DNA from: an uncultured Paracoccaceae bacterium
Lineage (GTDB): Bacteria; Pseudomonadota; Alphaproteobacteria; Rhodobacterales; Rhodobacteraceae
Length of the DNA stretch: 64,000 bases
Assembly: GCA_947502145.1 (NCBI GenBank)
Contig: CANMYO010000001.1
Coordinates: forward strand, 806,001 to 870,000
Direction of reading: 5' to 3'
Every line of letters begins with the position of its first letter. Positions within the stretch are counted from its first letter, which is position 1. Below, piece by piece: positions 1,412 to 18,009 of the stretch. The notes under the pieces were generated by a model. The model had not been told where the DNA came from, ran no database searches, and was given only the letters and a program-made list of their open reading frames with translations. The position numbers were made by a program, and so were the translations under genes.

Positions 1412-2349
1412 GCCGGTTTGACCTCTGCGCCGTCGGGTTCACGGTGCTCGATACCCTGTGCACCCCTGCCGACGAAATGCCGCCCAATGGTGGCGCAACA
1501 TTCGTCGACCAGATGACAATGACGGTTGCGGGCACCGCCGGATCAACCGCATATGTCTGCGCAATGCTGGGAATGCAGGTCCGGTTAGCGACCGAGCTTG
1601 GCGCTGATCCAATGGGCGATTGGCTGGTCAACGCACTGGGCGACGCTGATGTCGACACGTCTTTGATTACTCGGAACAAAGAGGTGCAGACACCGATGTC
1701 AATGCTCCCTATCGGCCAAGATGGTGCCAGGCGGGCGTTTTTCACTCCTGGAACGGCCAGCACCTTCACGATGAGTGACGACGCGATCGAGCGCGCCACG
1801 GATGCCCGTTTCGTTCACCTTGGCGGCATCGGGCTGCTCACGTCGTTCGACGGCGAGCGCTCGGAAGCGCTTCTCCGGCGTGCCAAGGAAAAAGGCAGGA
1901 CCACAACTCTCGACCTGATCCTTGCGGACGAGCGTGCATTCGACAAGGTCAAGCCTCTGCTGCCTTTCGTCGACTATTTCATCCCCTCCATCGACGAGGC
2001 CACTGCCATGGTAGGGCCGGGCACAAACGCCAATATTGCCAGGCGCCTCAAGCAGTTCGGAGCGCGAAATGTCCTGGTCACACTGGAATCCGAGGGGGTT
2101 TGGATCGATCCGGAAAACGGCGAGGCCTTTCAGTGCCCAGCCACGGAAATTACGGCGGTCGACACAACTGGTTGCGGCGACAGCTTTTCCGCGGGAATAA
2201 TCGTCGGCTTGTCCCGCGGCTGGACCCTTGCAGACTCCGCCGAATTTGCAAATGCGGTAGCAGCAGAGGTCGCCCAGGGCCTCGGCAGCCAGGGAAGGTT
2301 GGGATCTGGGGGAATTTCGAGGGTTGATGGCAAATTTCCGCGAACTTAA
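1408..2349 (+). CDS. PfkB-family carbohydrate kinase
   Basis: The 313-residue protein starts with GTG inside the stop region of the aldolase (4-bp overlap), which suggests translational coupling. It has the ribokinase/PfkB architecture: an N-terminal substrate half with GGAT and GTAGS motifs, and the C-terminal signature DTTGCGDSFSAG (near residue 250) holding the catalytic Asp and the anion hole. Family members phosphorylate sugars, nucleosides or sugar acids with ATP in the cytoplasm. Together with the upstream aldolase it suggests a short catabolic module. The substrate is not determined. Confidence 0.87.
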   Translation: MSRFDLCAVGFTVLDTLCTPADEMPPNGGATFVDQMTMTVAGTAGSTAYVCAMLGMQVRLATELGADPMGDWLVNALGDADVDTSLITRNKEVQTPMSMLPIGQDGARRAFFTPGTASTFTMSDDAIERATDARFVHLGGIGLLTSFDGERSEALLRRAKEKGRTTTLDLILADERAFDKVKPLLPFVDYFIPSIDEATAMVGPGTNANIARRLKQFGARNVLVTLESEGVWIDPENGEAFQCPATEITAVDTTGCGDSFSAGIIVGLSRGWTLADSAEFANAVAAEVAQGLGSQGRLGSGGISRVDGKFPRT

Positions 2350-4207: not shown

Positions 4208-4963
4208 TCAGTGTTCGAGCATCGCCCAGAGCCGACGTTTGATCTGAATGAACTCATCTGTCAGGCGCATTTCATCCGTCCGGGGGCGCGGCAAGGTCAC
4301 CTCTTCGATATGGTGAACTCGACCGGGACGCGCGGACATAACAATTATCTTGTCGGACAAATAGATCGCCTCTTCCAGATCATGGGTCACAAAAATAACC
4401 GTCTTTTTCGACTGCCGCCATGCCTCCAACAGATCCGATTGCATGCGTTCCTTGGTCTGGGCGTCCAGCGCACCAAAGGGTTCATCCATCAGCAACACAT
4501 CAGGGTCATTGGCATAAACCCGGCCAATATCTACCCGCTTGCGCATACCTCCAGACAGTTCGCGCGGCCAGCGGTCCTCAAATCCTTTGAGGCCCACCAT
4601 CTCGGTCCATTTGGCCTCCACTTCGCGCTGTTCAGTCACACTCGCCCCGCGCAGGCGGGGACCGTATGAGATATTCTTGGCAACCGTCATCCAGGGAAAG
4701 ACCGCATCCTGTTGGAACACCATTCCCCGGCGGCGATCAGTGCCTTTGATCAACTCACCATCCAGTGTCATCTGCCCATCTGACGGATCAAATAGCCCTG
4801 CCATCATCTTGAGCAACGTGGATTTTCCGCACCCCGATGTGCCAACGATGGAGGTGAAGCTGCCGTCCTCAAACTTAAGGTCAATGTTCTCAAGAACGGT
4901 CAGTGCCTCAAGGCCACCTTTTCCAAAGGTATGGGTCAGTTTATCAACAACAATCTCAGACAT
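4208..4963 (-). CDS. ABC transporter ATP-binding protein (SsuB/TauB type)
   Basis: The 251-residue ATPase has Walker A (GTSGCGKST, residues 41-49), the Q-loop (VFQQDAVFPW), the signature LSGGMRKR, Walker B (VLLMDEPFGALD) and the switch His (VTHD). It belongs to the sulfonate/nitrate/taurine class that energises NMT1-like importers. It is the last gene of a minus-strand operon (binding protein, permease, ATPase), and its ATG overlaps the permease stop. The adjacent divergent sulfatase suggests that the importer carries the sulfatase substrate. That substrate assignment is inference. Confidence 0.9.
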   Translation of the reverse strand: MSEIVVDKLTHTFGKGGLEALTVLENIDLKFEDGSFTSIVGTSGCGKSTLLKMMAGLFDPSDGQMTLDGELIKGTDRRRGMVFQQDAVFPWMTVAKNISYGPRLRGASVTEQREVEAKWTEMVGLKGFEDRWPRELSGGMRKRVDIGRVYANDPDVLLMDEPFGALDAQTKERMQSDLLEAWRQSKKTVIFVTHDLEEAIYLSDKIIVMSARPGRVHHIEEVTLPRPRTDEMRLTDEFIQIKRRLWAMLEH

Positions 4964-5739
4964 TATTCACGCGTCTCCGACCAGATCATCAGGCGTTTTT
5001 GAATAGAGCGAAAGGTGCGATCCATAATGAACGCACAAGCACCGATGATCACAATGATCATCATGACCTGATCGGTCAGGAAATACCTTCGCCCCTCTTG
5101 CAGCATGTAGCCAAGCCCGCTTGGTGCTGCGATAAGTTCAGCGGCGACTAGTGTCGTCCACGCAGCAGCAAGAGCGATGCGGTAACCGGTGATTATAAAA
5201 GGTGTCGCTGCCGGCACTGCGACGGTTCGGAACACCTGGAAACGGCTGGCCCCCATGGTAGACGCAGCATCGACATAAACCTGCGGCACGTTCTTCATGC
5301 CGGCGATCACGTTGACCACACAGACCATGAAACAGGCGATTGAGATCAGCAAGACACGGCTGAATTCTTCAATACCAAACCAGATGATGATGATCGGGAT
5401 ATAGGCAAGCGGCGGTATCGGACGGATCGCTTCGATGATCGGGTCAACTAGGTATTCAATCGTCTTGTACCATCCGACCAGACAACCGATGATCACGGCA
5501 AGTGTCGTGCCAATAAAGAAACCAAGGAAAATCCGGTACAGGCTCGCCCAAAGCGCATCGAGCAAAGTGCCTGCTGCGAGGTTGGTAAAGAACGATGCGA
5601 CAATATCGGGAATGGGAGGCAAGAGCGCGGGATTGTTGTCAGGGCGACTGGTGATGATTGTATAGATCAAAAGCACCAAACCAATGGACAAGGCACCCAG
5701 CACAAAGCGCCCTGACAAGATTTTTTTCAGTCCATCCAT
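4963..5739 (-). CDS. ABC transporter permease (SsuC/TauC type)
   Basis: The 258-residue inner-membrane protein has about six hydrophobic segments and the BPD-type permease EAA loop, visible around VDAASTMGASRFQVFRTV (about residues 155-172). It matches permeases of the sulfonate/nitrate/taurine family in length and motif position. It lies 3 bp after the binding-protein gene and shares one base with the ATPase start, so the three are one transcript. Two copies would form the pore in the inner membrane. Nothing in the protein tells the substrate. Confidence 0.9.
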   Translation of the reverse strand: MDGLKKILSGRFVLGALSIGLVLLIYTIITSRPDNNPALLPPIPDIVASFFTNLAAGTLLDALWASLYRIFLGFFIGTTLAVIIGCLVGWYKTIEYLVDPIIEAIRPIPPLAYIPIIIIWFGIEEFSRVLLISIACFMVCVVNVIAGMKNVPQVYVDAASTMGASRFQVFRTVAVPAATPFIITGYRIALAAAWTTLVAAELIAAPSGLGYMLQEGRRYFLTDQVMMIIVIIGACAFIMDRTFRSIQKRLMIWSETRE

Positions 5740-5742
5740 CGT

Positions 5743-6777
5743 CTAGATTTGCTTGATGATCTGATCAGACACAAGTGCATCCAGATCCGGCATGCCGCCA
5801 ATACGCTCGTTTTCGACAAGGAACTCGGACTGAACGGCCAGCGCCTTGGTCAGAATGCCCTTGGCGTAAACGTCCTTGATCTCAGCCTTATCGAAATAGA
5901 AATAGCCGTTCAGCAGCGGCTCGACATCTGCGGCCGTTACGCCCGCGCGCCCCATACCGGTCTGCCACTCAATCATCCGCTCAACGGTTCCGGCGTTATC
6001 CTCGCGCAGCATTTTCACCGCCTGATCGTGGAAGGCGCGGACAACCTCAACATAGGCGTCTTCTTTGGCGTCCATGTTCTGCTGCGTGGTCATGAAGACG
6101 TCCATGATCGACGGACGCGCCTCAAGCGGCATTTGCGAGCCTTCGACCAACAAGGAGGCATCAGGTAGCGCATCATAGATCAGCTTACGCGATGTCGCCA
6201 ATGGCACGGTCGCATCAACAGCGCCCGCGATAAAGGCAGACTGGCCGTCGATGGGCTCCATGTTGACGCGGGTCAGCGGCATGTCTTCCAAACCTTCGTT
6301 AGCCAAAGCCACGCCAAGGAAGAAGTCAAAGTTGGACCCGGAGGTCACAGCGATTTTCTTGCCCTCAAGGTCAGCAAGCGAACTCATGCCGGGTTGGCCG
6401 ACAATCTGGAAAAGGCCTGACGCATCCCCACAGATGGAGATTTCGCGGAAATCTGCTACCTTACGGAACATCGCGGCCAGCGGCGGCACGGAACCAACTG
6501 TGATCGTATCTACTGAGCCGCCGACCATGGCTTCGATGGCTGGCGGGCCGGATGGGAAGACAGAGAATTCCATGTCAACGCCGGGGGCAAACCCCTGATC
6601 CTGGATCAGCCAGTACAGGCCAAACGAATAGGCGGGAATGATCCCGACCTTCAGCGTTTCACTTGCCGCATGGGCTTTTCCGACAAAAAATGTAGGCGTT
6701 GCAAGTGCCGCGCCCGCGGCGACACCGCCCTTCAGAACCGTCCGGCGATTCAGATAACTTGTCTTTGAATTTGGCAT
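5743..6777 (-). CDS. ABC transporter substrate-binding protein with Tat signal (NMT1/SsuA-like)
   Basis: The best start is the ATG at 6777, which has GGGAGG seven bases upstream. The frame is open to 6870, but the in-frame ATG at 6783 sits too close to that ribosome site. The signal peptide contains a twin-arginine motif (NRRTVLKG, Arg 11-12), a hydrophobic stretch and an AHA cleavage site near residue 37, so the protein is exported folded to the periplasm. The mature part follows the periplasmic-binding type II pattern of taurine, sulfonate and thiamine-precursor carriers (LKVGIIPAYSFG, then DLEGKKIAVTSGS). It is the first gene of the importer operon and divergent from the sulfatase. The ligand is probably a small organosulfur compound, by context only. 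Confidence 0.86.
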   Translation of the reverse strand: MPNSKTSYLNRRTVLKGGVAAGAALATPTFFVGKAHAASETLKVGIIPAYSFGLYWLIQDQGFAPGVDMEFSVFPSGPPAIEAMVGGSVDTITVGSVPPLAAMFRKVADFREISICGDASGLFQIVGQPGMSSLADLEGKKIAVTSGSNFDFFLGVALANEGLEDMPLTRVNMEPIDGQSAFIAGAVDATVPLATSRKLIYDALPDASLLVEGSQMPLEARPSIMDVFMTTQQNMDAKEDAYVEVVRAFHDQAVKMLREDNAGTVERMIEWQTGMGRAGVTAADVEPLLNGYFYFDKAEIKDVYAKGILTKALAVQSEFLVENERIGGMPDLDALVSDQIIKQI

Positions 6778-6863
6778 TGCCATTCCTCCCGGTTTATTCT
6801 CACCCCTGGTTTCGGAATGCGCGTACCGAAGCCGTGGCCGTAGATACTCAATTGTCATAATTT

Positions 6864-6877
6864 TTGACACTTGTCAA
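6864..6877. promoter_or_regulatory. Palindromic operator candidate between importer and sulfatase
   Basis: TTGACACTTGTCAA is a perfect 6-bp inverted repeat around CT, about 86 bp upstream of the importer start and 52 bp upstream of the sulfatase start. Just left of it lies GTCATAATTT (6854-6863). A similar GTCATAAATT and a TTGAC/GTCAA element occur in the other divergent promoter of the locus (16014-16054). It may be a SorC-family operator or may carry a -35 box. This is inferred from position and symmetry. Confidence 0.45.
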
Positions 6878-6929
6878 CTCAGAGACCTCAAGCTAAAATA
6901 TCGGAAAGCCAGAATTGACGGAGTTTGGC

Positions 6930-8450
6930 ATGAATATCGTTCTGGTCCTTGTGGACAGCCTGACAAGGGATTGCCTGCGCGCCTACAACCCCGACAGCCC
7001 CTGCGCGACCCCCAACATTGATCGCCTTGCTGCAAAGTCGCACGTGTTCGACAACCACTTTGTGGGCAGCCTTCCCTGCATGCCTGCCCGGCGAGAGCTG
7101 ATCGCAGGCCGCAAGGAATTCATGTGGCGCCCATGGGGATCGCTGGAAGTGTTTGACCCGCGCTTGCCTGCCGAGGTCAAAAGGGGCGGCTATCACACCC
7201 ACATCGTGACCGACCACTACCATTACTGGGAAGAAGAGGCGAACGGTTACATCCAGAGCTACGACACCACCGAAATGATCCGCGGCTACGAAGTGGATCA
7301 TTGGAAGGCGCAGGATCCGAACGAAGAGAAGCCCGCATGGGTCAAGAAGGTTGAGGAATTCCGCGCCCCCGAACATATCGGACAATACTATGCCAACGTG
7401 AAGGACTTTGAGGGAGAGGAAGACTACTTCTCCGCCAAGACCTTTGGCGGGGCCTGCGACTGGCTAGACAGAAATGCCAATAAAGGCAGTTTCTTCCTGC
7501 ACGTTGAGACATTCGATGTTCATGAACCATTCGAAATCCCCGAACCCTATGAAAGCATGTATGCCGAAGGGGCCAGCAAGAATGAATTCAACATCTGGCC
7601 ACCCTATCAGGTCTACGATGATCTGAATGCCTTCATGGAGCAGACATCCCCCGAAGAGCTGGCGTTCCTCAAGTCACAGTTCATGGGCAAGGTCACGATG
7701 ATGGACAAGTGGCTTGGTACACTGCTGGACAAGCTGGAAGCGATGGACCTTTGGGATGACACCATGGTGATCCTGACCACGGATCACGGCCACGACATGG
7801 GCGAGCGGCGGGCCTTTGGCAAACAGCACCCGCATTTCGACAGCCACGCGAATATCCCGCTGATGGTCTGGCATCCGGCAAACCCCGGTAACGGCAAACG
7901 CGTCTCCGGGCTGACCCAGACCGTCGACCTTTTCGCCACGATCATTGATGCAGCCGGGGTGGAGGTCACATCCGCGAACCGTCACAGCCGGTCGCTATTG
8001 CCGATGATCACCCAAGACGCCCCCTCGACGCGCGACGCGATCCTCTATGGTACCTTCGGTCAGGGCGTCTGCGCCACTGACGGAACGTGGACGATCCTGA
8101 AATCCCCAGAGCCGGACAGGCCGCTCTTTCTCTATTCCACGGCAATTTTCCGCCCTCTTATTGTTGACAACCCCGTGGATGGCAGGCTGGCGAAACCGCC
8201 AAACAAGCCCGTCGATCAAGGGTATTTCGACCCAAGTGTCGACCTGCCCATGTGGAAAATCCCGATCAAGGTTGACCCACGCACGGGCGAGAACTTTCTC
8301 TTCAACCGCGTCAAAGATCCGGGGCAAGCGGATAATCTTTGGAACAAGGACAGTGCCCAACAGGAAAGAATGCTCAAACTGGTGCGTGATTTGATGGACG
8401 AAGAAGGCTTCCCACCAGAACAGCTCGAACGCCTCGGGCTTGTCGCTTGA
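6930..8450 (+). CDS. Cytoplasmic Cys-type sulfatase
   Basis: The ATG at 6930 is chosen because GGAG lies 6 bases upstream. A TTG at 6915 in the same frame has no better site. The 506-residue protein is an alkaline-phosphatase-superfamily sulfatase. The core motif LPCMPARRE gives C-x-P-x-R with Cys50 to be converted to formylglycine and Arg54. The metal-binding TTDHGHD lies near residue 285. There is no signal peptide, so hydrolysis should take place inside the cell after uptake. The maturase gene lies convergently about 100 bp downstream and the importer is divergent. It hydrolyses a sulfate ester to alcohol and sulfate. Phosphonate monoester hydrolases share this fold and the same CxPxR, so that activity is an alternative. 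Confidence 0.88.
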   Translation: MNIVLVLVDSLTRDCLRAYNPDSPCATPNIDRLAAKSHVFDNHFVGSLPCMPARRELIAGRKEFMWRPWGSLEVFDPRLPAEVKRGGYHTHIVTDHYHYWEEEANGYIQSYDTTEMIRGYEVDHWKAQDPNEEKPAWVKKVEEFRAPEHIGQYYANVKDFEGEEDYFSAKTFGGACDWLDRNANKGSFFLHVETFDVHEPFEIPEPYESMYAEGASKNEFNIWPPYQVYDDLNAFMEQTSPEELAFLKSQFMGKVTMMDKWLGTLLDKLEAMDLWDDTMVILTTDHGHDMGERRAFGKQHPHFDSHANIPLMVWHPANPGNGKRVSGLTQTVDLFATIIDAAGVEVTSANRHSRSLLPMITQDAPSTRDAILYGTFGQGVCATDGTWTILKSPEPDRPLFLYSTAIFRPLIVDNPVDGRLAKPPNKPVDQGYFDPSVDLPMWKIPIKVDPRTGENFLFNRVKDPGQADNLWNKDSAQQERMLKLVRDLMDEEGFPPEQLERLGLVA

Positions 8451-8553
8451 TCCGGGGCGCTTCTGTCACCAGCCCCAAATTACTGTTTGATGCAAGGTAA
8501 GTGACGGATGACGCCATAGGGCCAAGCCGCCGATGCATTGACCCGTTCGCCGC

Positions 8554-9489
8554 CTACCCGTCCCATACCACACGAAACCCTGTATGCGTCGTCGTGCTGT
8601 CAGGCGAATTTCCCGTCCGCGCCGCAATTCGGTAGCGCCAGCAATAGCTGGCATGGCATAGAAACGACCCGCCCTTCGCCAGCTTGTACCCTTTCATCGC
8701 CGCCTGACGCTGTCGCGCGGACTTCTTCTGCGATCTGATCTTGAATGGTTCGGACGTCCACTCCCAGACGTTCCCCACCATATTGAAAAGGCCGTAGCCA
8801 TTTGGTTCGAACGACCGCGCCGGTGCTGTAGTCTCATACCCGTCAAGATTGCCGTTCTTGTGCGGAAATCGGCCCTGCCAGATGTTGCAGGGAAAAAACT
8901 GACGGTCATCGGGATCCCTGCCCCCCCAAGGATAGCGCACATCCCCAAGACCACCCCGGGCGGCGTGCTCCCACTCAATCTCCGTCGGCAGCCTGCCCCC
9001 GGCCCAGCTCGCATAGGCGCGAGCATCGTTCCAGGACACCTGTACAACGGGATGATCGGCGCGCCAGGCAAATGCCTGTGTCCCGGGACCATTCACGTCG
9101 CACCAGTTTGCACCCTCAACCCTCCGCCACCATTCAACGTCGGACACCCCTTCGGTTGGCCCGACGCTGTCCGACACCTGCGACCAGAAAACAAAGGACC
9201 AGCCAAACAACTCCGCCTCGGTGATATGGCCCGTCTGCGCAACAAATGCGGCAAACTGGGCGTTTGTGACCGCAGTTTGCCCGATGCGAAACGGCTTGAC
9301 CTTTTTGCGGCGCATCGGTCCCTCGGCATCCGCCGCGATCAACGGCGTATCTGTCCCGATCAGCGCCACACCACTCGGAATGGCAACTGTCGGGAAATCC
9401 GCCGCTTTCAAATGTGGCGCGTAATCGAACCGGATCGCGGCACCCCTCTTGCGCCCTGACGCAGGGCCGCAGCATGCAGCGTCAGTCAT
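8554..9489 (-). CDS. Formylglycine-generating enzyme (sulfatase maturase)
   Basis: The likely start is ATG 9489, eight bases inside the end of the regulator gene. The longer frame to 9585 runs through the regulator and is unlikely. The 311-residue protein is an FGE-sulfatase domain with the diagnostic copper-binding pair FLCHASYC (Cys278 and Cys283), followed by RYRIAAR and the C-terminal TGFR. FGE oxidises the Cys of CxPxR to formylglycine using O2. Having both active cysteines separates it from look-alike proteins such as EgtB or serine/threonine-kinase-linked domains. It is the last gene of a six-gene operon and faces the sulfatase, its evident client. Confidence 0.93.
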   Translation of the reverse strand: MTDAACCGPASGRKRGAAIRFDYAPHLKAADFPTVAIPSGVALIGTDTPLIAADAEGPMRRKKVKPFRIGQTAVTNAQFAAFVAQTGHITEAELFGWSFVFWSQVSDSVGPTEGVSDVEWWRRVEGANWCDVNGPGTQAFAWRADHPVVQVSWNDARAYASWAGGRLPTEIEWEHAARGGLGDVRYPWGGRDPDDRQFFPCNIWQGRFPHKNGNLDGYETTAPARSFEPNGYGLFNMVGNVWEWTSEPFKIRSQKKSARQRQAAMKGYKLAKGGSFLCHASYCWRYRIAARTGNSPDSTTTHTGFRVVWDG

Positions 9490-10462
9490 CCAGCAACGCG
9501 GCCGCAAGCGCCGTGTCGACACAAAGGTGAGAAACAAGCCCGCCTCGGATGGCGGCCAGCGCCGCGTCCCTTCGATCTTTGCCACAGACGATCAAAAGAC
9601 GTTTCTTGGCCGACCTCAGGTCGCTTAGCTCTGCGGCGATGACGCGCGCGCGGGGCGGTAGGTCAATCTCAACCCCTTCCTTATCCACATAGCGGCAGCA
9701 GACGATCCCGACGGCGCCCGCTTTGGTCGCCGCCTTCAATTCTGCAACGGACGCCATGCCGGCAGCCACCAGATGCGTATCCGTCTTAACGTTCCCGATG
9801 GAGTACACAATCAGGTCCAGTGCTGAGAGCCGGTCCAGCTGGCTTTTGATGGTGGGTTCCGCGCGTAGCCGGGCTGCAAGCTCAGCATTCGAAATCAAGC
9901 CCGGCGCGTGGAGCGTGAAAGACCGCGCACCCAGTTTGCTGGCGATCTGGATCGTGCAATTCTCAGAGGCAGGCACCCGATCGGAGATCATGGAACCAAT
10001 CAGCTGACAAACCTCTACGTTCGCCACATGGTTCATAGGCAACGCATCCGCCACGGCCATGATGGTTTCACCCCAGGCCACGCCAACGCTGTCACCGGGA
10101 CTGGTGACATCTAGCAGGGCCGTTGATGCGACACGCGCCAGTTGCAGCAAGGTATCATCACGAGACAATGCTTCGCCCGCCTCGGCATGCGCTATATAGA
10201 CATCATCCAGCCTGTACTTTTCACGTAGATCTCGGGCAAGTCTCGAGCCCGCAAGGTGACGCCCTTCAACCCTGATATCAACGATGCCCACATCGCGGCT
10301 TTCGCGCAGCATGTTCACGATGGTGGCCCGACTGACCTTCATGCGTTTGGCAATCTCGCCCTGTGTCAGTCCTTCGCCGTAGTACAACAGCGCCACGTTT
10401 GAAAGGAGTGCTTCCTTGTCCCCGCCCGATCGGTGCGTATGTGTGGTCTTATCCATCGTCAT
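9482..10462 (-). CDS. SorC/DeoR-type sugar-responsive transcriptional regulator
   Basis: The ATG at 10462 overlaps the aldolase stop in an ATGA arrangement, so I prefer it to the longer frame at 10519. The 326-residue protein has an N-terminal helix-turn-helix (GLTQGEIAKRMKVSRATI, about residues 32-49). A long SorC-type sugar-phosphate-binding domain follows, with GDSVGVAWGET and a C-terminal CVDTALAAAL. SorC regulators respond to phosphorylated sugars, here probably a product of the FGGY kinase. It is embedded in the operon it is likely to control. The palindromes at 6864 and 16042 are candidate operators. Confidence 0.88.
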   Translation of the reverse strand: MTMDKTTHTHRSGGDKEALLSNVALLYYGEGLTQGEIAKRMKVSRATIVNMLRESRDVGIVDIRVEGRHLAGSRLARDLREKYRLDDVYIAHAEAGEALSRDDTLLQLARVASTALLDVTSPGDSVGVAWGETIMAVADALPMNHVANVEVCQLIGSMISDRVPASENCTIQIASKLGARSFTLHAPGLISNAELAARLRAEPTIKSQLDRLSALDLIVYSIGNVKTDTHLVAAGMASVAELKAATKAGAVGIVCCRYVDKEGVEIDLPPRARVIAAELSDLRSAKKRLLIVCGKDRRDAALAAIRGGLVSHLCVDTALAAALLDD

Positions 10463-11127
10463 GAATTTACGTTCTTTTTCCCCGACTGACCATAGTTCTG
10501 ACGGAACCAGGCATAACACCGGTCGATTTCTTCCTGCGGTAGCTCCTCCACCGGACCATGCAGCATGGCCAGATGCGTCGTCATAGCCGCCTCTTCCAGA
10601 TACATGGCAATCGAAGTCGCCTCGGTCGCTGATTTGCCCATGGTAAAAACCCCATGCGCCTTGACCAAAACGGCCATTCCGCCCTCAGCCGCATCAATGA
10701 TCGCCTGACCTGTATCAACCTCGCCGGGGGTGGCATAGCGCGAACAGGGTACGTCGCGCCCAAGGATATGCGTGATCGGCGTCAACACGGCAGGGATGCG
10801 CGCGCCCCGAGCGGCAAAGCTGGACGCATAGGGCGAGTGCGTATGACACATGCCATTCACGTCTTCCCGATGGCGGTAGACATAAAGATGAACACCCGTA
10901 TCAACTGACGGCTTCATCTTGCCCTCGATCACATTGCCATCAATATCCACGACAACCATGGTGTCAGGCGTGAGTTTGGAAAACTTCACACCCGAGGGCT
11001 TGATTACGATCAACCCGGTTTCAGGGTCACGCCCCGAAACATTGCCACCCGACCCGACAACCAGCCCATTTTTGGGCAATTCATGGTTCTGCTCGCAGAC
11101 TTCTTCTTTCAAGGCTTCAAGCATCAC
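10459..11127 (-). CDS. Class II aldolase (fuculose/apulose-phosphate aldolase-like)
   Basis: The 222-residue class II aldolase has GSGGNVSGRD at the substrate phosphate site, a catalytic acidic/metal block TDT-G-V-H-L-Y and the Zn ligands HTHSPYASS (near residues 95-103). KAHGVFTMG follows near residue 152. It starts within the ADH stop (4-bp overlap) and runs into the regulator start by another 4 bp. It would cleave a ketose phosphate made by the neighbouring kinase, usually to DHAP plus an aldehyde. It is distinct from the class II aldolase at 746, so the window carries two separate aldolase-kinase pairs. The exact substrate is unknown. Confidence 0.86.
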   Translation of the reverse strand: MMLEALKEEVCEQNHELPKNGLVVGSGGNVSGRDPETGLIVIKPSGVKFSKLTPDTMVVVDIDGNVIEGKMKPSVDTGVHLYVYRHREDVNGMCHTHSPYASSFAARGARIPAVLTPITHILGRDVPCSRYATPGEVDTGQAIIDAAEGGMAVLVKAHGVFTMGKSATEATSIAMYLEEAAMTTHLAMLHGPVEELPQEEIDRCYAWFRQNYGQSGKKNVNS

Positions 11128-12185
11128 GCGACTTTCTTGAGTTCAGCGGGCACGCCGTGCGGGTAGATCACAATCTTCAGCGATTTCTCGGCCTCGACCA
11201 GCATCCGAAACGCCTCCGCAGACTCCGAGATATCAAACCGATGCGAGATCGCGGCATCTGCCCTGATCCGCCCTGCCTCAAGTAGTCGAATATAGCTGTA
11301 GGTGTCCGTGTGATCCGACGAATACCGAGAGGTCACGGTGATCTGGTCAAAATAGGCCGCGTTGCCGTCCCGCACCCAATCCGTGTCGGGCGGCAATGGC
11401 GCGCCCAAATGCAGGCATCCGCCAACCTCAACCAATGCCAGCGCCTGTTCCCATGCAGACGGAAACGGTGCGATGACGATCACAGTATCCGCCAGCCGTC
11501 CGTTATTCAGTGCGCGCATCGCGGTAACAGCATCCTCAGACTTTGGATTGATTGTGTGACTCGCGCCAAATTCGAGTGCCTTGGCCAGGCGCCAGTCCGA
11601 AAAGTCCAAGGCTACAACCTTGCCCGCCCCAAACAGCGGGGCAAGATGTACAAACCCTTGCCCCATAAATCCCGCCCCCACGACGGCAACGGTATCGCCA
11701 GGCTGAATATGGCACGTTTTGAGACCCGATAGCACACAAGACCAGGGTTCAATCGTAATCGCCGCTTCGGTTGAGATGCTGTCCGGCAACCTATGCGCGT
11801 CCATCGCGAGGTGCTGTGCCGTCACGCGATAGTATTCACAGACCCCACCAGGGTCGAGCTTCATGGATTTGTAAAACGGATCACGCGTGAAGTGTCCCCG
11901 TAGCGACAGATGAGAATTAACGCGGCCCACGTGATGGTTGACGAACATCCTGTCGCCAACCGCAAAATCCGTCACACCCGCGCCAACGCCGACCACTTCG
12001 CCAATTGGTTCATGACCCAGCACCTTTGGCTCAGACTTGTACCATGCCATCGTCTCACCGCCGCACAGACCGCACGCCAGTGTCTTGAGAAGCACCTCAC
12101 CCGACCCGATTGCAGGCACAGGACGCTCTTCGATTCGGATATCGTCGATGGCGTGTTGCACTGCAGCTTGCATGGTCTGTGTCAT
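11124..12185 (-). CDS. Zinc-containing medium-chain alcohol dehydrogenase
   Basis: The 353-residue MDR protein has the N-terminal GroES-like domain with the catalytic-zinc region CGLCGGET and GHEPIGEVVGVG. The Rossmann nucleotide site reads VAVVGAGFMGQGFV (about residues 165-178). The usual four-cysteine structural-zinc loop is absent, with a His-rich stretch (NHHVGRVNSHLSLRGHF) in the region where it would lie. Such enzymes oxidise polyols or secondary alcohols with NAD(P). In this operon it would turn the desulfated alcohol or polyol into the keto-sugar used by the kinase. Both ends overlap neighbours by 4 bp. Confidence 0.87.
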   Translation of the reverse strand: MTQTMQAAVQHAIDDIRIEERPVPAIGSGEVLLKTLACGLCGGETMAWYKSEPKVLGHEPIGEVVGVGAGVTDFAVGDRMFVNHHVGRVNSHLSLRGHFTRDPFYKSMKLDPGGVCEYYRVTAQHLAMDAHRLPDSISTEAAITIEPWSCVLSGLKTCHIQPGDTVAVVGAGFMGQGFVHLAPLFGAGKVVALDFSDWRLAKALEFGASHTINPKSEDAVTAMRALNNGRLADTVIVIAPFPSAWEQALALVEVGGCLHLGAPLPPDTDWVRDGNAAYFDQITVTSRYSSDHTDTYSYIRLLEAGRIRADAAISHRFDISESAEAFRMLVEAEKSLKIVIYPHGVPAELKKVA

Positions 12186-13696
12186 AGTGTGTCCTTACGC
12201 ATGTTTGAAAGCTCTGCCTGCAACGCCCTGTGATGGCGTGAAATGGCAGCGTATCGGGCGAAAACGCCCTCGTATTCCTTGGTCCTGTCTGGATAATAGG
12301 TCTTCAGCGCCTCATCACGCTGGCCCGCCAGCACAACGGCATCGCCAAGACCCGCCGCAGAAGCACCAAGCGCCGCTGCGCCCCAAAGTCCGTGATCAGA
12401 GGCTGTACTGACCTGCACGGGCTGGCCCATAACATCCGCGATGATCTGGCACCAAACTGGATTCTTGGCACCACCACCCGTCAGTCGGACCGGCGCTGTG
12501 GGCAAGCCACCTTCTTCTTCAAGGCAATGGCGCAAGCTGAGTGCGGTACCCTCAAGCACCGCACGGCCCATTTCGCCGGTCGTTGTCGTTGCCGACAACC
12601 CGTGGAACGCACCCCGAATATCGGGGGCAACAAAGGGCGCACGTTCACCGTTGAGATAGGGCAGAAATGTCACGCCGTTCGACCCTACCGGTACATCTGA
12701 CACCAGCTCATTCAGCCGTGCAGCAACCACACCAGCCGAGGTGCCACCAAGGCTCTTGGGATGCAAGGCTGCGAACCAGTCAAACGCGGCGGCCCCCGTG
12801 GTGGGCGCCAAAACCCGGATCGTAACATCCGACGTCGGATGCAGCACGCTGGCACCAACCGGCGTGTCTGAAGGTGCCACATGATCTGTCAGGATGTTAA
12901 CAACGGCAGTTGTGCCCATGATCATCATGGTTTGACCGGGTTGATCCATGCCCATCCCGACTATCATCGCGGAAAGGTCCAGCGTTCCCACCGAAACGGG
13001 CAGCCCTTCGGGCAATCCCGTAGCCTCTGCCGCTTGCGCCGTCACGCCGCCAAGAACGCTGTCAGCGCGGCGCGGAGCAATCAGTCTTGCCGCAATGTCC
13101 TGACATCCAAGATCCGCAATCTGAGCGTCTGAATACGCACGCGTTTCGAAATCCAGAAAGGGGATGGACGCGTCCGAGAAATCCGTTGCCAACTGCCCGG
13201 TCAGGCAAAGTCCGACCCAGTCAGCACAAGTTAATACATGCGCAGCTTGGCCGGCCCGATCATAAGCCGCCGACCGCAACCAGCGCCATAACATGCCCGA
13301 TGTGCCAGTCCAAAGTGAAGTATGGCATCCCCGGCCAATGCTGGCCGTTGCGCCAGTTTCGATCAATCCGGCCAAGTCATCAGCGGTGCGTGTATCATTC
13401 CACAAAATAGCGGGTCCCGTCGGCGTGCCCTCTTTGGAAACACACCAGATGCCATCGCCCTGTGCCGCCACGCCAAGGGCCTCAAAGCTGCGCCCGTCAC
13501 ATTGCACCGTCAGGTCGTGTAGCACGCCGCATACAGTGTCCCAGACATTGGCCATGTCCTGTTCTCTTCTGCCGTCCGCAGATTGCTGCACAGCGCTGGG
13601 TGCTTCGGCCATGGCGATCTGTTCGCCTTCTTTTGTGTAAGCTGCCGCCTTGACTGCCGTCGTCCCCACGTCAAGTCCCAACCAGAGCTTTGTCAT
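12182..13696 (-). CDS. FGGY-family carbohydrate kinase
   Basis: The 504-residue protein opens with the FGGY phosphate-1 motif GLDVGTTAVKAA and carries the C-terminal adenosine/FGGY signature TGGGAKNPVWCQIIAD (near residue 405). Its length fits xylulokinase and relatives. FGGY kinases phosphorylate ketoses such as xylulose, ribulose, erythrulose or apulose, or polyols. It overlaps the molybdoenzyme stop and the ADH start by 4 bp each. With the downstream aldolase and the divergent transketolase pair it points to a pentulose- or tetrulose-type intermediate. The sugar itself cannot be read from the sequence. Confidence 0.89.
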   Translation of the reverse strand: MTKLWLGLDVGTTAVKAAAYTKEGEQIAMAEAPSAVQQSADGRREQDMANVWDTVCGVLHDLTVQCDGRSFEALGVAAQGDGIWCVSKEGTPTGPAILWNDTRTADDLAGLIETGATASIGRGCHTSLWTGTSGMLWRWLRSAAYDRAGQAAHVLTCADWVGLCLTGQLATDFSDASIPFLDFETRAYSDAQIADLGCQDIAARLIAPRRADSVLGGVTAQAAEATGLPEGLPVSVGTLDLSAMIVGMGMDQPGQTMMIMGTTAVVNILTDHVAPSDTPVGASVLHPTSDVTIRVLAPTTGAAAFDWFAALHPKSLGGTSAGVVAARLNELVSDVPVGSNGVTFLPYLNGERAPFVAPDIRGAFHGLSATTTTGEMGRAVLEGTALSLRHCLEEEGGLPTAPVRLTGGGAKNPVWCQIIADVMGQPVQVSTASDHGLWGAAALGASAAGLGDAVVLAGQRDEALKTYYPDRTKEYEGVFARYAAISRHHRALQAELSNMRKDTL

Positions 13697-15987
13697 GTCC
13701 GTATTCCCGCCTGATCGTCCGCCCCTGATGCGATCACCGGCGGCCTGTCAATGCTCAATTTAGGCACCGGATCCACCCATTGCTCAACGCGAACCAGCGC
13801 GGTGTGCGCCATGTTCCCTTGGCTCAGGTCCGAACACCCGCGATCAATCGTCAAAACGTTCGGATTGCCATGCACTTCAAGCATCTCGCCCCCAACCATC
13901 TGAGGATCAAACCAGGCGCCCGTGGCAAGCGAAATGCAGTCCTCACGCAAGAGTGGGTCAAAGCGCAGGCCGGCAAGGCAGGCCCCCCGCGCATTCCAAA
14001 TCCGGACAAGCGTTCCTTCTTCCAATCCACGGGCCGCCGCCGCTTGGGGATGCAGATATGCAGGTTCACGCCCCTCGATCTTGTCCGCAAGCGCCTCTGA
14101 TCCCCTGTCATTCTGGCTGTGCAGCCTTGTATCCGGCTGTCCGGATATCAAATGCAATTCATCGGGCTCTGCCGATATCAAAGACTCCGATGATGGCAGC
14201 CACGTTGGATGCCCAGGGCAGCCTCGCAAACCCCAGCTTGCAATGGCATTGTCGTGCAAGGTGATCTTGCCCGTTTCTGTCGCCAATGGTGCTGCCTGCG
14301 GATCAGCAACAAACCGTTCAAACGCAACGCGGATCTCGTCGGCCTCTGGCACATCAAATCGCCCGGCCTCTTTGAAGTCAGCAAAACCAGGCAACGCAAA
14401 CCCGGCCTCTTGCGCGGCTCGCTCCGCCTGTTGCCAAAGAAATGCCAGCCAATCGTCAGCGCTACGCCCCCCGGTAAATCCTTCCTCGATCCCCAATTCG
14501 GCAGAAACGCCCCGGAAGATATCAAAATCATCCCGCGCCTCACCAACAGGATCAAACAAAGGCGACATATAAAACAATGATGGGTCCCGCCGGTTCATCA
14601 TAAGATCCGCCCGCTCTAGCGGCGTGGTCGCGGGCAGCACGATATCTCCTCGCCGGGCGGTCGCGGTCCAGCTGTGATCCTGAACGATGACGGTTTCCGG
14701 CCGCCGCCACGCGCCATTCAGACGGTTGAGGTCTTGATGGTGATGAAAGGGATTGCCGCCGCACCAATACACCAGACGGATAGCGGGATAGCGGCGTTGT
14801 TCACCGTCATAATGGTAGCTCTCACCGGGCTTCATCAACATATCCGCAATCCGCGCCACCGGAATATAATCCGACACCTTGTTCAACCCCTGCGGCAAAG
14901 ATGGCCAGCTGATCAGCCGGGACGCGCCCCCCACATGGGTGATCGACCCATAGCCAAAGGAATAACCGCACCCTGGCTTGCCAATCTGTCCGATCACACA
15001 TGCCAGCCCAAGGGCCGCCCAAATGGTCTGCTCCCCGTGCTCGGCCCTCTGCATGCCCCAATTCAACGCGATCATGCTTTTCTTGCAGACCAGCTTTTGC
15101 GCAATGGTCTTGAGGTCGCCCGCGCTCACATCGCTGTGCGGCGCTGCCCACGCAACCGATTTGGGCACACCGTCGGTCTCACCCAACACATAGGCACGCC
15201 ACTCTGCCCAGCCGCTGGTGCATTTTGACAAAAACGCCTCATCCGCATGCCCCGTAACAAGAATTTCGTGCGTCAGCGCCAACAGCATCGCAGTATCCGT
15301 GCCAGGACGGATCGATACCCATTCCGCGCCGGGCAGGTCCGTTCCTCGCGGGGAGACATTTACAATCTCCCCGTCGCGCTCGCGAAGCCGTGCCAAAGCC
15401 TGCCCGATATCATGGCGCGTCACACCAGCCGACGAAATCTGTGCCGTCCGTTCGCTGATCCCACCAAAGGCAAGCAGGTAGTCACAGTGCTCTGCAACGG
15501 ATTGCAGGCTTGTCATTTCATCCTGAAACGCCCGATTACTCAGACCGATGACACGGGGGAACAACACTTCTGCCGCCGCATGGGAATAGGTGTTCCGGGA
15601 CGACACATAGCCCCCAGCCAAATTCAGAAACCGGCGCAGCTGGCTTTGCGCATGATGGAACCGCCCCGCGCTTGCCCATCCGTAAGATCCGCCAAAAATC
15701 GCGCTGTTTCCGTGCGCGTCGCGCACGCGTCTGATTTCCGCCGCAACCAAAGCATTCGCCCTGTCCCAACTCAGTTCAACGAAGCTGTCGTCATGACGGC
15801 TGGCCCCCTTGTCGCCGTTCAGCCAACCGCGCCGCGCCGCAGGCTTTAGGATGCGGCTCCACCGGTCTTGCGCCGCCGACACCCAACCGCGCCCGATGCG
15901 CGATGGCCGCGGGTCATCCTCGACAGGTGCGATCCCGCCAGCGCCATCCAGTTGATAAGTCCCCCAATGGGAGGATGTAAATTTCAT
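13693..15987 (-). CDS. BisC/TorZ-type molybdopterin oxidoreductase (S- or N-oxide reductase family)
   Basis: The start at 15987 has AGGA eight bases upstream. The longer frame to 16011 has a poorly placed site. The 764-residue enzyme is a DMSO-reductase-family type III Mo-bisMGD protein. It lacks an N-terminal 4Fe-4S cysteine motif and has GGSYGWASAGRFHHAQ near residue 100, where the Ser after GWA is the expected molybdenum ligand. SWTATARRGDIVLPATTPLER is the usual cofactor-binding segment near residue 440-460. No Tat signal is present, so it should be cytoplasmic like BisC, unlike TorA or DorA. BisC relatives reduce biotin or methionine sulfoxide, TMAO or DMSO. It is the first gene of the six-gene operon. 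Its role beside sugar enzymes is unexplained. Confidence 0.88.
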   Translation of the reverse strand: MKFTSSHWGTYQLDGAGGIAPVEDDPRPSRIGRGWVSAAQDRWSRILKPAARRGWLNGDKGASRHDDSFVELSWDRANALVAAEIRRVRDAHGNSAIFGGSYGWASAGRFHHAQSQLRRFLNLAGGYVSSRNTYSHAAAEVLFPRVIGLSNRAFQDEMTSLQSVAEHCDYLLAFGGISERTAQISSAGVTRHDIGQALARLRERDGEIVNVSPRGTDLPGAEWVSIRPGTDTAMLLALTHEILVTGHADEAFLSKCTSGWAEWRAYVLGETDGVPKSVAWAAPHSDVSAGDLKTIAQKLVCKKSMIALNWGMQRAEHGEQTIWAALGLACVIGQIGKPGCGYSFGYGSITHVGGASRLISWPSLPQGLNKVSDYIPVARIADMLMKPGESYHYDGEQRRYPAIRLVYWCGGNPFHHHQDLNRLNGAWRRPETVIVQDHSWTATARRGDIVLPATTPLERADLMMNRRDPSLFYMSPLFDPVGEARDDFDIFRGVSAELGIEEGFTGGRSADDWLAFLWQQAERAAQEAGFALPGFADFKEAGRFDVPEADEIRVAFERFVADPQAAPLATETGKITLHDNAIASWGLRGCPGHPTWLPSSESLISAEPDELHLISGQPDTRLHSQNDRGSEALADKIEGREPAYLHPQAAAARGLEEGTLVRIWNARGACLAGLRFDPLLREDCISLATGAWFDPQMVGGEMLEVHGNPNVLTIDRGCSDLSQGNMAHTALVRVEQWVDPVPKLSIDRPPVIASGADDQAGIRT

Positions 15988-16013
15988 CTTCGGGTTCCTG
16001 AGGTCTCGCATCC

Positions 16014-16054
16014 TTGACTTTTACATATGATCCAATTTATGACTTTTGTAAAGT
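16014..16054. promoter_or_regulatory. Divergent promoter/operator candidate
   Basis: This AT-rich stretch between the molybdoenzyme operon and the transketolase genes holds TTGACTTTTA at 16014, CATATG at 16024-16029 and the inverted repeat ACTTT-TGT-AAAGT at 16042-16054. On the minus strand it contains GTCATAAATT, close to GTCATAATTT beside the 6864 palindrome. The recurrence in both divergent promoters of the locus supports a common regulator, probably the SorC-type protein. No experiment backs this. Confidence 0.45.
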
Positions 16055-16069
16055 ATGAGAGAGGCCGCC

Positions 16070-16993
16070 ATGCGGAATGAAAAGACCACCGAAGACGTCG
16101 CCCTCGGCATTCGTCGCAGAGTATTTGAGCATTCAATCCGAAACAATGGCGGGTATCTGAGCCAGGCCTGCTCCTCAGCCGAGCAGCTCGCGTGGCTCTA
16201 TAACGAAGAGCTCAATCTGGGCGATCCAACCTTGCCGATGATCCCCAAGCCCTTTGAAGGAGTGCCGTCGCCAGACAACCCCGATTACCACACCGGAGCC
16301 GGCTACAACGGCCCCGCCGCACCCGAATTCGACCGCCTGTTCATCGCGCCCGCGCATTATGCACTGGTCGCCTATGCTACCCTTATCGAAGTGGGGCGCA
16401 TGGCACCCGAAGGGTTGGAGATGTTCAACAAAGACGGATCATCGGTTGAGATGATCGGCGCCGAACACAGCCCCGGCATGGAAGTCCATAACGGCACTTT
16501 GGGGATTGGCCTGTCGACCGCGGCAGGACTGGCATGGGGCCGCAGACGCCGCGGTGAACCGGGACGCACCTGGGTCTTCATGTCCGACGGCGAAGTGCAG
16601 GAAGGCCAGACATGGGAAGCCGTACAGGCCTGCGCCCACCACGGGGTCGAAGTCAAAGCGATTATGGACGTCAACGACCAGCAATGTGATGGCGCGATGT
16701 CATCCGTGATGGAAGTTGGCGACATCAAAACCAAATTCGAAAACTTCGGCGCGACCTGCATCGAAATCGACGGTCATGACCTGTCCGCGATGCGCGATGC
16801 TGCAGTTGAGAACCATGCCGACAAACCCTTGATCATCCTGTCCCGCACCAGCCCGTTCCACACAATGCCAATTCTTGAGGAACGCTTCCCCCGCCTGCAC
16901 TACGTCCGCTTCAAATCCGAGGACGAACGTGCCCGGTTCAACGTGTCGATTGCCAAAGATCTTGGCGTCGACCCTGTCGATTACGTCCACTGA
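16070..16993 (+). CDS. Transketolase, N-terminal (TPP-binding) subunit
   Basis: The ATG at 16070 is preferred because GAGAGG lies six bases upstream. An in-frame ATG exists at 16055. The 307-residue protein carries the thiamine-diphosphate/Mg motif, here SDGEVQEGQTWEA (usually GDG), ending in the metal ligands of DVNDQQCDG. GAEHSPGMEVHNGTLG supplies the pyrophosphate-side His. It ends where full-length transketolases continue into the pyrimidine domain, which is encoded by the next gene 11 bp on. Such split transketolases occur in apulose-phosphate and sulfo-sugar pathways as well as in housekeeping roles. The position opposite the sulfatase operon suggests a dedicated function. Confidence 0.89.
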   Translation: MRNEKTTEDVALGIRRRVFEHSIRNNGGYLSQACSSAEQLAWLYNEELNLGDPTLPMIPKPFEGVPSPDNPDYHTGAGYNGPAAPEFDRLFIAPAHYALVAYATLIEVGRMAPEGLEMFNKDGSSVEMIGAEHSPGMEVHNGTLGIGLSTAAGLAWGRRRRGEPGRTWVFMSDGEVQEGQTWEAVQACAHHGVEVKAIMDVNDQQCDGAMSSVMEVGDIKTKFENFGATCIEIDGHDLSAMRDAAVENHADKPLIILSRTSPFHTMPILEERFPRLHYVRFKSEDERARFNVSIAKDLGVDPVDYVH

Positions 16994-17004
16994 AAGGCCT
17001 CAAC

Positions 17005-18009
17005 ATGGTAGAAATGGTAAACCGCCCCTACGCATCGGCCTTCGAAAAGTTCGCGGCAGGCAACCCTGACATCCTCTGCATGTCTGCAGACCTGACATCG
17101 TCCTGCGAAATCGATGGGTTTCGTGACCGGCACCCGGATCAATTCCTGTCGTTGGGCATGGCCGAGCAGAATATGATGAGCTTTGCCGGCGGCTTGGGCC
17201 TTGCAGGCTTTCGGCCCTTCATTCACACATTCGGCGTTTTTATGTACCGCCGCCCCTATGACCAGTTGATGGCCTCGGTCGCCTATCCGCGACGCAAGGT
17301 TCGCCTGATGGGTTTTCTTCCAGGCGTCACCACTCCAGGCGGAATGACCCACCAATCCATCGAGGATATCTCGGTGATGCGGTCCATTCCGAACATGACT
17401 ATTTTGGAAACTGGTGACGCCACAGAGGTAGAAAGCATCTGCGAGGCTGCAGACAGCATTGACGGCCCGGTTTGGTGCCGGGTCTTGCGTGGCACGGTGC
17501 CGCGTCTCTTCGACACGCCGATCAAGGTCGGTGAAATGCGCGAACTTTCGACCGGTGACGACATCCTCGTGGTGACGGCGGGCATTTGTACAGAAGAGGC
17601 GCTGCGCGCCCGCTCTGCCCTTGCCAAAGCAGGGCTCAGCATTCGCCATTTGCATCTGCACACCATCAAGCCTTTCGACCACAACGCGCTGCTTGATCAC
17701 ATAGGGTCCGTGAAATCCGGTGTGATCACGCTCGAAAACCACGTGACCGAGGGCGGGATCGGCAGTCTCGTCGCCGAGACGATGGCAGATGCCGGGGTCG
17801 GTAAACGTCTCATCCGACTAGGACTGAAAGATACCTATGCCCATGGCGGCTCACGCGGGTATCTGATGCGGTATTACGGTCTCGACGCTCTGGCACTTGT
17901 GCGCGGCATAGAAGACCTTGTCGGTGCGCAGTTTGGCATTTCAGAATCAGATCTGGATGCCGCACGCGTAGACGATATCCATTCGCTCGCGAAGGCGGAA
18001 GCGTTGTAG
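17005..18009 (+). CDS. Transketolase, C-terminal subunit
   Basis: The 334-residue protein starts with AAAGG seven bases upstream. It has the transketolase pyrimidine-binding domain with the catalytic Glu in LGMAEQNMMSFAGGL (about residues 52-66) and a C-terminal transketolase domain (ILVVTAGICTEEAL, then TLENHVTEGGIG). It pairs with the preceding gene to form one heteromeric enzyme that moves a two-carbon ketol unit between sugar phosphates. The ketose donor may be the kinase product of the divergent operon. No helper gene follows. The next DNA is insertion-sequence relic. Confidence 0.9.
   Translation: MVEMVNRPYASAFEKFAAGNPDILCMSADLTSSCEIDGFRDRHPDQFLSLGMAEQNMMSFAGGLGLAGFRPFIHTFGVFMYRRPYDQLMASVAYPRRKVRLMGFLPGVTTPGGMTHQSIEDISVMRSIPNMTILETGDATEVESICEAADSIDGPVWCRVLRGTVPRLFDTPIKVGEMRELSTGDDILVVTAGICTEEALRARSALAKAGLSIRHLHLHTIKPFDHNALLDHIGSVKSGVITLENHVTEGGIGSLVAETMADAGVGKRLIRLGLKDTYAHGGSRGYLMRYYGLDALALVRGIEDLVGAQFGISESDLDAARVDDIHSLAKAEAL

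Follow-up and report, generated by a model that had tools for sequence, protein, structure and literature searches.

A conserved sulfatase, FGGY kinase and split transketolase locus in an uncultured Paracoccaceae bacterium, apparently co-regulated and possibly serving the catabolism of a small sulfate ester

The locus described here occupies positions 4208 to 18009 of a 64,000-nt stretch of DNA from an uncultured Paracoccaceae bacterium (contig CANMYO010000001.1), the whole of which is called the window below. It groups an ABC importer, a sulfatase with its formylglycine-generating enzyme (FGE), a SorC-family regulator, a class II aldolase homolog, an alcohol dehydrogenase (ADH), an FGGY kinase, a BisC-type molybdoenzyme and a split transketolase (Table 1). 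An earlier reading of the DNA (the original prediction) had taken these genes for one pathway acting on a sulfated sugar or polyol. When families were assigned by running Pfam and NCBIfam models on the translations of the open reading frames (ORFs), every gene that it named was found in place, ORFs and models being in agreement; the BisC match scored under the model's cut-off. The gene set, its linkage and co-occurrence in relatives, its exchangeable front ends, its shared promoter motif and its shared transketolase were computed directly. They lead us to consider it rather probable that the genes form one SorC-controlled regulon for the import, cytosolic desulfation, oxidation, phosphorylation and transketolase cleavage of a small sulfate ester.

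Table 1. Genes and operator-like sites of the locus, followed by a neighbouring gene pair, in window coordinates
Feature	Positions	Strand	Support
ABC importer ATPase	4208..4963	-	PF00005, 110.8 bits
ABC importer permease, SsuC/TauC type	4963..5739	-	PF00528; TauC model 187.7 bits, under cut-off 342
Exported substrate-binding protein, NMT1/SsuA-TauA-like, Tat-type signal	5743..6870	-	PF09084 and PF10518, above cut-off
Operator-like site TTTGACACTTGTCAAC in the divergent binding-protein/sulfatase promoter	6863..6878		16.7 bits
Cytosolic formylglycine sulfatase, CMPAR motif, no signal peptide	6930..8450	+	PF00884, 121.1 bits
FGE, Cys pair in CHASYC	8554..9489	-	PF03781, 243.4 bits
SorC-family transcriptional regulator	9482..10519	-	PF04198, 174.5 bits
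Class II aldolase/AraD-like 4-epimerase homolog	10459..11127	-	PF00596; PRK06557 251.4 bits, cut-off 251
Zn-dependent ADH	11124..12185	-	PF08240, PF00107
FGGY kinase, xylulokinase-like	12182..13696	-	XylB model 266 bits, under cut-off 380
BisC-type molybdopterin S/N-oxide reductase, accessory	13693..16011	-	TIGR00509 761 bits, under cut-off 1017.55
Operator-like site TATGACTTTTGTAAAG in the divergent BisC/transketolase promoter	16038..16053		18.3 bits, member of training set
Split transketolase, N-terminal (ThDP) half	16055..16993	+	PF00456, 51.4 bits
Split transketolase, pyrimidine-binding and C-terminal half	17005..18009	+	PF02779, PF02780
FucA-type class II aldolase, possible second outlet	746..1411	+	fucA model 209.8 bits, under cut-off 400.25
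PfkB-family sugar kinase, possible second outlet	1408..2349	+	PF00294, 147.8 bits

On the minus strand, BisC, FGGY kinase, ADH, aldolase, SorC and FGE follow one another as an operon whose ORFs touch or overlap, and two gene pairs are divergent, the split transketolase with BisC and the sulfatase with the binding protein. The ORF call of the FGE, extending to 9585, is overlong, and the protein very likely starts at MTDAACCGP. As predicted, the sulfatase is of the Cys type, with a CMPAR motif, and carries no signal peptide, its sequence starting directly at the first catalytic strand. Because the binding protein has a Tat-type signal and the sulfatase no signal peptide, uptake should precede desulfation, in agreement with the predicted order of the two steps.

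The linkage of these genes was followed in a family survey of 295 genomes (one per genus) and in a contig scan that kept 79 loci of 586 relatives, the loci from the scan being those among the matches listed. Sulfatase orthologs were called at ≥60% identity (41 of the 295 genomes had matches at E ≤ 1e-20, the remainder at ≤48%) and FGGY kinase orthologs at ≥55% (14 had E ≤ 1e-60; G151 at 47%, G158 at 42%, G224 at 41%, G253 at 36%, and G279 and G239 at 35% were dropped); an FGGY kinase ortholog at this level defines what we call the kinase core. Sulfatase orthologs occur in 5 of the 295 genomes and in at least 15 loci (L048 to L062) among the matches listed. The sulfatase, SorC, aldolase, ADH, FGGY kinase, BisC and both transketolase halves lie together in eight other loci (L049 Mameliella, L050 Silicimonas, L051 Cognatishimia maritima, L052 and L062 Paracoccus, L053 Halovulum, L055 Boseongicola, and G201), and since they do so in two gene orders, the set is not a chance assembly. 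The neighborhood comparison proposed with the original prediction thus found sulfatase, kinase and transketolase together, with no FGE seen nearby in two of the eight loci (L053 and L062). In the window-type order the sulfatase stands at the FGE/SorC end; in the other (L051 to L053 and L062) it stands on the transketolase side, with a binding-protein gene at the SorC end in L051, L052, and L062. The ADH is 76 to 88% identical across core loci. Orthologs of the importer ATPase (80 to 86%) lie near the sulfatase in L054, L056, L058, L059, and L061; the window-type importer was not found within the stretches of L049, L050, L055, and G201, the last three of which carry a different, SsuBC-like importer (30 to 41% matches). 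Across the survey, the kinase is present in 4 of the 5 genomes with the sulfatase versus 4 of the 290 without it (Fisher p 1e-6), and the transketolase in 7 of the 8 genomes with the kinase versus 18 of the 287 without it (Fisher p 1e-7), tests that treat genomes as independent, which all come from separate genera yet have likely exchanged genes.

The kinase core, present in 8 of the 295 genomes, lacks a sulfatase ortholog in four of them. A ribose-type (CUT2) importer is found in five of the eight, one (G109) has both sulfatase and importer, and none has neither. The CUT2 binding protein, called at ≥85% (9 of 295 genomes had E ≤ 1e-60; G051 at 42% and G150 at 41% were dropped), occurs in seven genomes, namely these five and also G151 and G224, whose FGGY kinases are more distant. 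SorC, aldolase, ADH and FGGY kinase adjoin the CUT2 importer in G207 and G250; aldolase, ADH and FGGY kinase do so in G029, where the contig stops before SorC, and occupy a 3.6-kb contig in G227, with the importer on another contig. The window's own binding protein has orthologs in 3 of the 295 genomes, all of which have a sulfatase ortholog. Since every core genome has either the sulfatase or the CUT2 importer, the sulfatase, FGE and ABC importer look like a front end that brings a sulfate ester to a core fed differently elsewhere, the CUT2 importer of relatives without sulfatase presumably serving a free sugar. The proximity of the core to a sugar importer in these relatives also fits the sugar or polyol skeleton that had been predicted. 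A third downstream arrangement is seen in L202 and L151, where the core-type CUT2 binding protein is accompanied by a distant FGGY kinase, a PfkB kinase and SorC.

A palindromic operator-like motif, TTTTACAaaTGTAAAA, learned from the transketolase/BisC promoters, recurs before the sulfatase and importer genes. The matrix (consensus tTTTACAaaTGTAAAa, 18.7 bits) was trained solely on the transketolase/BisC intergenic regions of seven loci; the promoters of L050 and L055, and of L062, are near-identical to trained ones (L034, L052), so that these rows are not independent. In the window, once the training promoter is set aside, the site at 6863 outscores every other in the first 26 kb, the next best reaching 8.0 bits. 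The 13 stretches with the core (290,885 bases) hold 26 sites of at least 11 bits, a level at which 0.41 sites per 20 kb are expected from a Markov model, and 24 of these lie in promoters of this system. The remaining two are at position 9942 of L033 and at window position 48235, the latter (13.6 bits) falling where a glutathione-S-transferase-like ORF ends and probably due to chance. Among core stretches, a site marks the sulfatase promoter in eight of the nine that hold one (the window, L035, L036, L049, L050, L051, L053, and L055; not L033) and the separate importer promoter in four of four (L051, L052, L062, and L148). No separate site precedes the sulfatase of L052 and L062, which is encoded downstream of the transketolase in the same direction. 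Beyond the 13 stretches, sites of 23.6 and 13.1 bits precede the sulfatase of L048, and in L201, from the same genome, sites of 16.6 and 25.2 bits precede a same-strand run of transketolase and then importer, the importer lacking a separate site. L054 has sites before both sulfatase and importer and no core in its 21 kb; the core was then found on another contig of its genome (G295), with sites of 25.4 and 22.0 bits. For L048 and L054, the core is therefore located elsewhere in the same genomes.

The motif extends to CUT2-type loci, where sites lie between importer and kinase (L145, L146, L150, and L151), before the importer (L166 and L192), before the kinase (L149) or before the transketolase (L161 and L167), several of them being weak (11 to 12 bits); L147 had no site in the scan, and the single one in L164 falls within the start of the transketolase. 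Twelve sulfatase stretches without the core (L054 excluded) hold 10 sites, 7 of them in L057. Loci of the type carrying a RuBisCO-like protein (RLP), considered below, hold 20 sites in 300,000 bases, some in MtnK/importer intergenic regions, and related regulators may therefore share the motif. We infer that SorC binds these sites. Taken together, the linkage in two gene orders, the co-occurrence and the common motif uphold the claim that this is one system and not two neighboring ones, and describe a real, conserved, apparently co-regulated pathway of known enzyme families.

The split transketolase connects the locus to a second gene context. Orthologs of its C-terminal half were called at ≥73% identity (61 of 295 genomes had E ≤ 1e-40; the next were G014 at 53%, G109 at 50% and a partial match of 59% in G157, the rest being at ≤42%), and all 19 genomes with an RLP at E ≤ 1e-40 (≥51%) were kept. 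At these thresholds the transketolase occurs in 25 of the 295 genomes, 18 with RLP and 7 with the kinase core, with no overlap and none left over. The RLP gene is directly beside the transketolase in all 18 stretches examined. MtnK and MtnA are present too in 15 of them, whereas G002 has just an MtnA-like protein, and G158 and the 8-kb stretch of G216 have neither. In L174, MtnK (474 bits, cut-off 275) and MtnA (430 bits, cut-off 279) stand with a CUT2 importer and a mutarotase. The RLP-linked transketolases are 73 to 91% (C half) and 71 to 87% (N half) identical to those of the window and are their nearest relatives outside this system. A tree built from 32 transketolases together with AptAB shows kinase-type and RLP-type rows intermingled (L049 groups with L162, support 95/91; L165 lies among CUT2 rows, 94/89), and its well-supported branches require the RLP label to have changed at least twice. 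Because the same transketolase interleaves between the two contexts, its passage from one to the other suggests one shared substrate. As it accompanies RLP, mostly with MtnK and MtnA, this substrate would probably be a product common to both routes, such as a 1-substituted xylulose 5-phosphate (1-deoxy or 1-methylthio). The best solved relative of the RLP is 3qfw (191 bits), which we take to be an R. palustris protein of the R. rubrum type, the type that makes 1-methylthio-xylulose 5-phosphate. The other transketolase of the window's genome is separate and full-length (684-codon frame). In one RLP-type operon (L165, on G002:C4), the transketolase and RLP genes stand with a purine nucleoside phosphorylase, an MtnA-like protein and a BisC homolog (46 to 47%, one internal stop reported), which looks like an operon for the use of methylthioadenosine or its sulfoxide.

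The sulfatase has the features of a class I enzyme, with C-x-P-x-R (C50, R54), the metal residues D9 and D285-H286, H98, H198, a second lysine (K298) and an FGE alongside; D9, C50, H96, H98, H198, D285-H286, and K298 are invariant in 16 aligned sequences, the window's included. It resembles choline sulfatase (BetC), an intracellular formylglycine sulfatase of a small alkyl sulfate, in that D9, C50, H98, H198, H286, and K298 align with D14, C54, H104, H201, H297, and K309 of that enzyme, for which the consulted passages of PMC5870055 also give Lys102 as required. It differs in showing 20% identity to two choline-sulfatase-like proteins, in having His for Lys102 and in being followed by sugar-type genes. 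The structural model has a mean pLDDT of 72.5, with the catalytic loop (44 to 72) below 50, and the best 50 fold matches listed are all sulfatases or phosphonate monoester hydrolases at an rmsd of 6.4 to 12.2; given the low-confidence loop and these deviations, no substrate was read from the model. PF03781 has two matches in the genome, and the window FGE is the only one with the Cys pair, CHxSYC presumably being the functional cysteine pair of FGE. Two other sulfatases of the genome (L154, 4559-6067; L153, 4831-6336) have C-x-P-x-R or C-x-P-x-R-like motifs, one being choline-sulfatase-like and the other clustered with apparent ABC sugar permeases and a binding protein. As the only FGE-domain protein with the Cys pair, the window FGE probably serves all three.

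Combining these observations, the pathway can be pictured as follows, its substrate and catalytic steps being drawn from family functions and the shared transketolase. The periplasmic binding protein would capture a small organic sulfate ester, which the ABC transporter would import, and the FGE-activated sulfatase would remove its sulfate in the cytosol, leaving a sugar or sugar alcohol in free form. The ADH would oxidize the desulfated product to a ketose and the xylulokinase-like FGGY kinase would phosphorylate it, while the AraD-like enzyme might adjust its configuration (an optional epimerization) or cleave. The dedicated split transketolase would then convert the ketose phosphate into a C3 phosphate and a C2 unit. 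BisC, in strains having it, could reduce a thioether S-oxide; we regard it as accessory because orthologs (≥54%) occur in only 7 of 29 genomes tried, among them 6 of the 8 kinase-core genomes. The substrate best fitting this scheme would be a sulfated, perhaps 1-substituted, pentitol or pentose.

Several observations weigh against this proposal. First, the sulfatase is not tied to one outlet, because 6 of the 15 named sulfatase loci (≥60%) lie in genomes without a kinase core at ≥55%: L056 and L058 have kinases of 46 and 36%, and no FGGY kinase matched at E 1e-60 in the genomes of L057, L060, and L061 or in G014 (to which L059 appears to belong). The original prediction had named separate placement of the two gene groups as the finding that would count against it; such placement does occur in L056 to L061, where no such core lies beside the sulfatase, and in G295, where the groups are on different contigs yet share the operator motif. 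One site also stands about 120 bases before the sulfatase of L057, which has no core. Second, the sulfatase and FGE of G257 lie at the opposite end of a 44-kb contig from the importer and core. In that contig (C15, 44,392 bases; L036 and L148) the first base truncates the FGE and the transketolase runs almost to the last, so that the ends would adjoin in the L051 order if the contig were circular, which is an assumption. Third, L033 has no operator site at its sulfatase and a truncated transketolase. It is a decaying copy (G109:C176), with a partial SorC, a shortened N half and no C half; G109 also holds an intact transketolase with a CUT2 importer on another contig (L166). Fourth, G227 has both kinase core and RLP, and no transketolase ortholog was found there, not even beside the RLP, while in L170 (G158:C104) a 42% FGGY kinase is divergent from a split transketolase followed by RLP, so that the two routes may not be strictly separate. 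Fifth, single enzymes fit imperfectly: H96 of the sulfatase takes the place of choline sulfatase Lys102 in all 16 sequences aligned, that of the window among them, with Gln in the more distant L083; the AraD-like enzyme retains Asp76 and has His at Asp120, presumably in the numbering and roles of the L-ribulose-5-phosphate 4-epimerase AraD, so that the "4-epimerase" label, barely reached by score, may be wrong; and BisC is missing from two of the eight core genomes.

It is tempting to speculate on a more specific version of the pathway, in which a methylthio or methylsulfinyl group is present on the imported ester; such a compound would have natural analogues in methylthio and sulfonium pentoses, for which this analysis found no support. 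In it, a sulfatase of a clade with a His-x-His sulfate site would desulfate the ester, BisC would reduce the S-oxide, the ADH, FGGY kinase and AraD-like enzyme would yield 1-methylthio-xylulose 5-phosphate, and the split transketolase would cleave this in the manner of DXS in reverse. We regard this sulfated thio-sugar alcohol scheme as rather unlikely; if true, it would link sulfate-ester and methylated-sulfur cycling. A further idea, sulfonium-lyxose as the substrate, gained no support from the literature search and remains speculation.

Alternatively, the desulfated product might become a branched ketose that is phosphorylated by the FGGY kinase and split by an AptAB-like transketolase, in the manner of apulose. 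The original prediction had drawn this likeness, and the parts are indeed similar: the ECSF_RS02670-02715 cluster of E. coli SE15, described as the D-apiose/apulose (apt) pathway in the consulted passages of PMC13001218, shares with the locus and its relatives a CUT2-type importer (here found in relatives), an FGGY kinase, a SorC-like regulator, oxidoreductases (two in E. coli SE15) and a split transketolase, while having no sulfatase, FGE, AraD-like enzyme or BisC. The likeness fails at the level of sequence. AptA and AptB are 28 and 33% identical to the window transketolase halves, short of orthology, AplK is 24% identical over 439 residues to the window FGGY kinase, short of an apulose kinase, and the regulator is 25% identical, against up to 87 and 91% for RLP-linked transketolases. 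Identities of 24 to 33% rule out membership in the apulose pathway itself and make an apulose-like route improbable.

A third possibility leaves the rest of the scheme unchanged and has the "sulfatase" act on a phosphonate monoester or a phosphodiester. Its closest solved sequences are indeed those of the phosphonate monoester hydrolase/arylsulfatase group (4uph, 4upl, 2vqr, and 2w8s; 105 bits, versus 75 for choline sulfatase), and the catalytic Lys is replaced by His. However, the binding protein has SsuA as its best NCBIfam model (86.6 bits, under the cut-off of 163.5), although among PDB relatives a protein named as a nitrate transport protein comes first and SsuA second; the fold matches listed include many sugar sulfatases; and none of the 12 locus proteins has a phosphonate-degradation enzyme as its best Pfam or NCBIfam match. 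We therefore judge this reading quite improbable. Least probable of all is sulfur scavenging, known from the ats genes of Pseudomonas, in which importer and sulfatase would free sulfate from various esters and owe their place beside the kinase module to history. The importer does belong to the SsuA/TauA type, importer and sulfatase occur without the core in L056, L058, L059, and L061, and IS remnants lie on both sides of the block, but the promoter motif common to the carbon genes, which disfavors scavenging as the sole role, the sugar-type SorC regulator, the co-occurrence statistics and the marine origin of many named relatives, from habitats rich in sulfate, all argue against it.

The proposed sulfate ester pathway also differs from other known routes. 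The split transketolase of the sulfoquinovose sulfo-TK route, SqwGH, belongs to an organosulfur sugar pathway and is likened here by description; its substrate is a C-S sulfonate, as opposed to a sulfate ester. The MtnK/MtnA/RLP operons, of the MTA-isoprenoid shunt type, have the transketolase in common with the locus (up to 87% in the N half and 91% in the C half), and some also have a FucA-type aldolase and a CUT2 importer. Entry by ADH and FGGY kinase after desulfation is unlike the MTA-isoprenoid and dihydroxyacetone phosphate (DHAP) shunts, and in this genome the MtnA model gave no match and RLP none at E 1e-40 (MtnK was not part of the search), which places it outside these shunts. The split transketolase beside RLP is not a defining feature of the published shunts, and the word transketolase does not occur in the two shunt papers (PMC10986504 and PMC6302742). 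Routes for 5-deoxyribose and MTR via an aldolase or a methylsulfurylase, and a promiscuous transketolase acting on 5-deoxyribose, are described in the consulted passages of the literature (PMC10986504, PMC6302742, PMC4483651, PMC5870055, PMC13001218, PMC6079011, and PMC8102628). The gene set itself is not described in these passages, and no description of it was recognized in the open-access literature, covered mostly at title and abstract level with subscription papers outside. Of the original prediction as a whole, the single pathway is well supported, the apulose-like part is not, and desulfation, oxidation, phosphorylation and C2 cleavage keep the standing of inferred steps.

If the sulfate ester pathway is real, Rhodobacterales-type bacteria, to go by the named relatives, would have a means of degrading a dissolved organic sulfate ester, in which some relatives replace the desulfating front end by a sugar importer and the dedicated split transketolase is common to RLP operons as well. 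Two unassigned gene sets, the FGGY core and the RLP plus split transketolase, would gain one testable common intermediate, and a few proteins (two binding proteins, one kinase and one transketolase) stand out as those whose ligands would identify the substrate.

Two further genes may belong to the picture. In L056 and L061, sulfatase and importer are paired with a FucA-type aldolase (orthologs 61 to 63%) and a PfkB kinase (56 to 63%). As orthologs of these two are encoded at 746-2349 of the window, two outlets may be open to the front end, both of them nearby in the window genome. The aldolase at 746 keeps SSE and HYM, which we take to be motifs of DHAP aldolases. This pair, like the operator-like sites at 6863 and 16038, had gone unnoticed in the original prediction; it is separated from the block by an IS110 remnant.

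The sulfatase is part of a wider family with TDHYHYW and PCMPARRE motifs (L069 to L126) that extends to Lokiarchaeota, Treponema, Halobacteria, Paenibacillus and Clostridia, several members having ABC transporter ATPase-like matches nearby. The block itself is flanked by IS110 at 3071-3580 (transposase model over cut-off, partial model match) and by an IS1182 fragment at 18543-19061, and may have been moved or trimmed, since such remnants lie on both sides; the GC profile of the region shows no sharp island.

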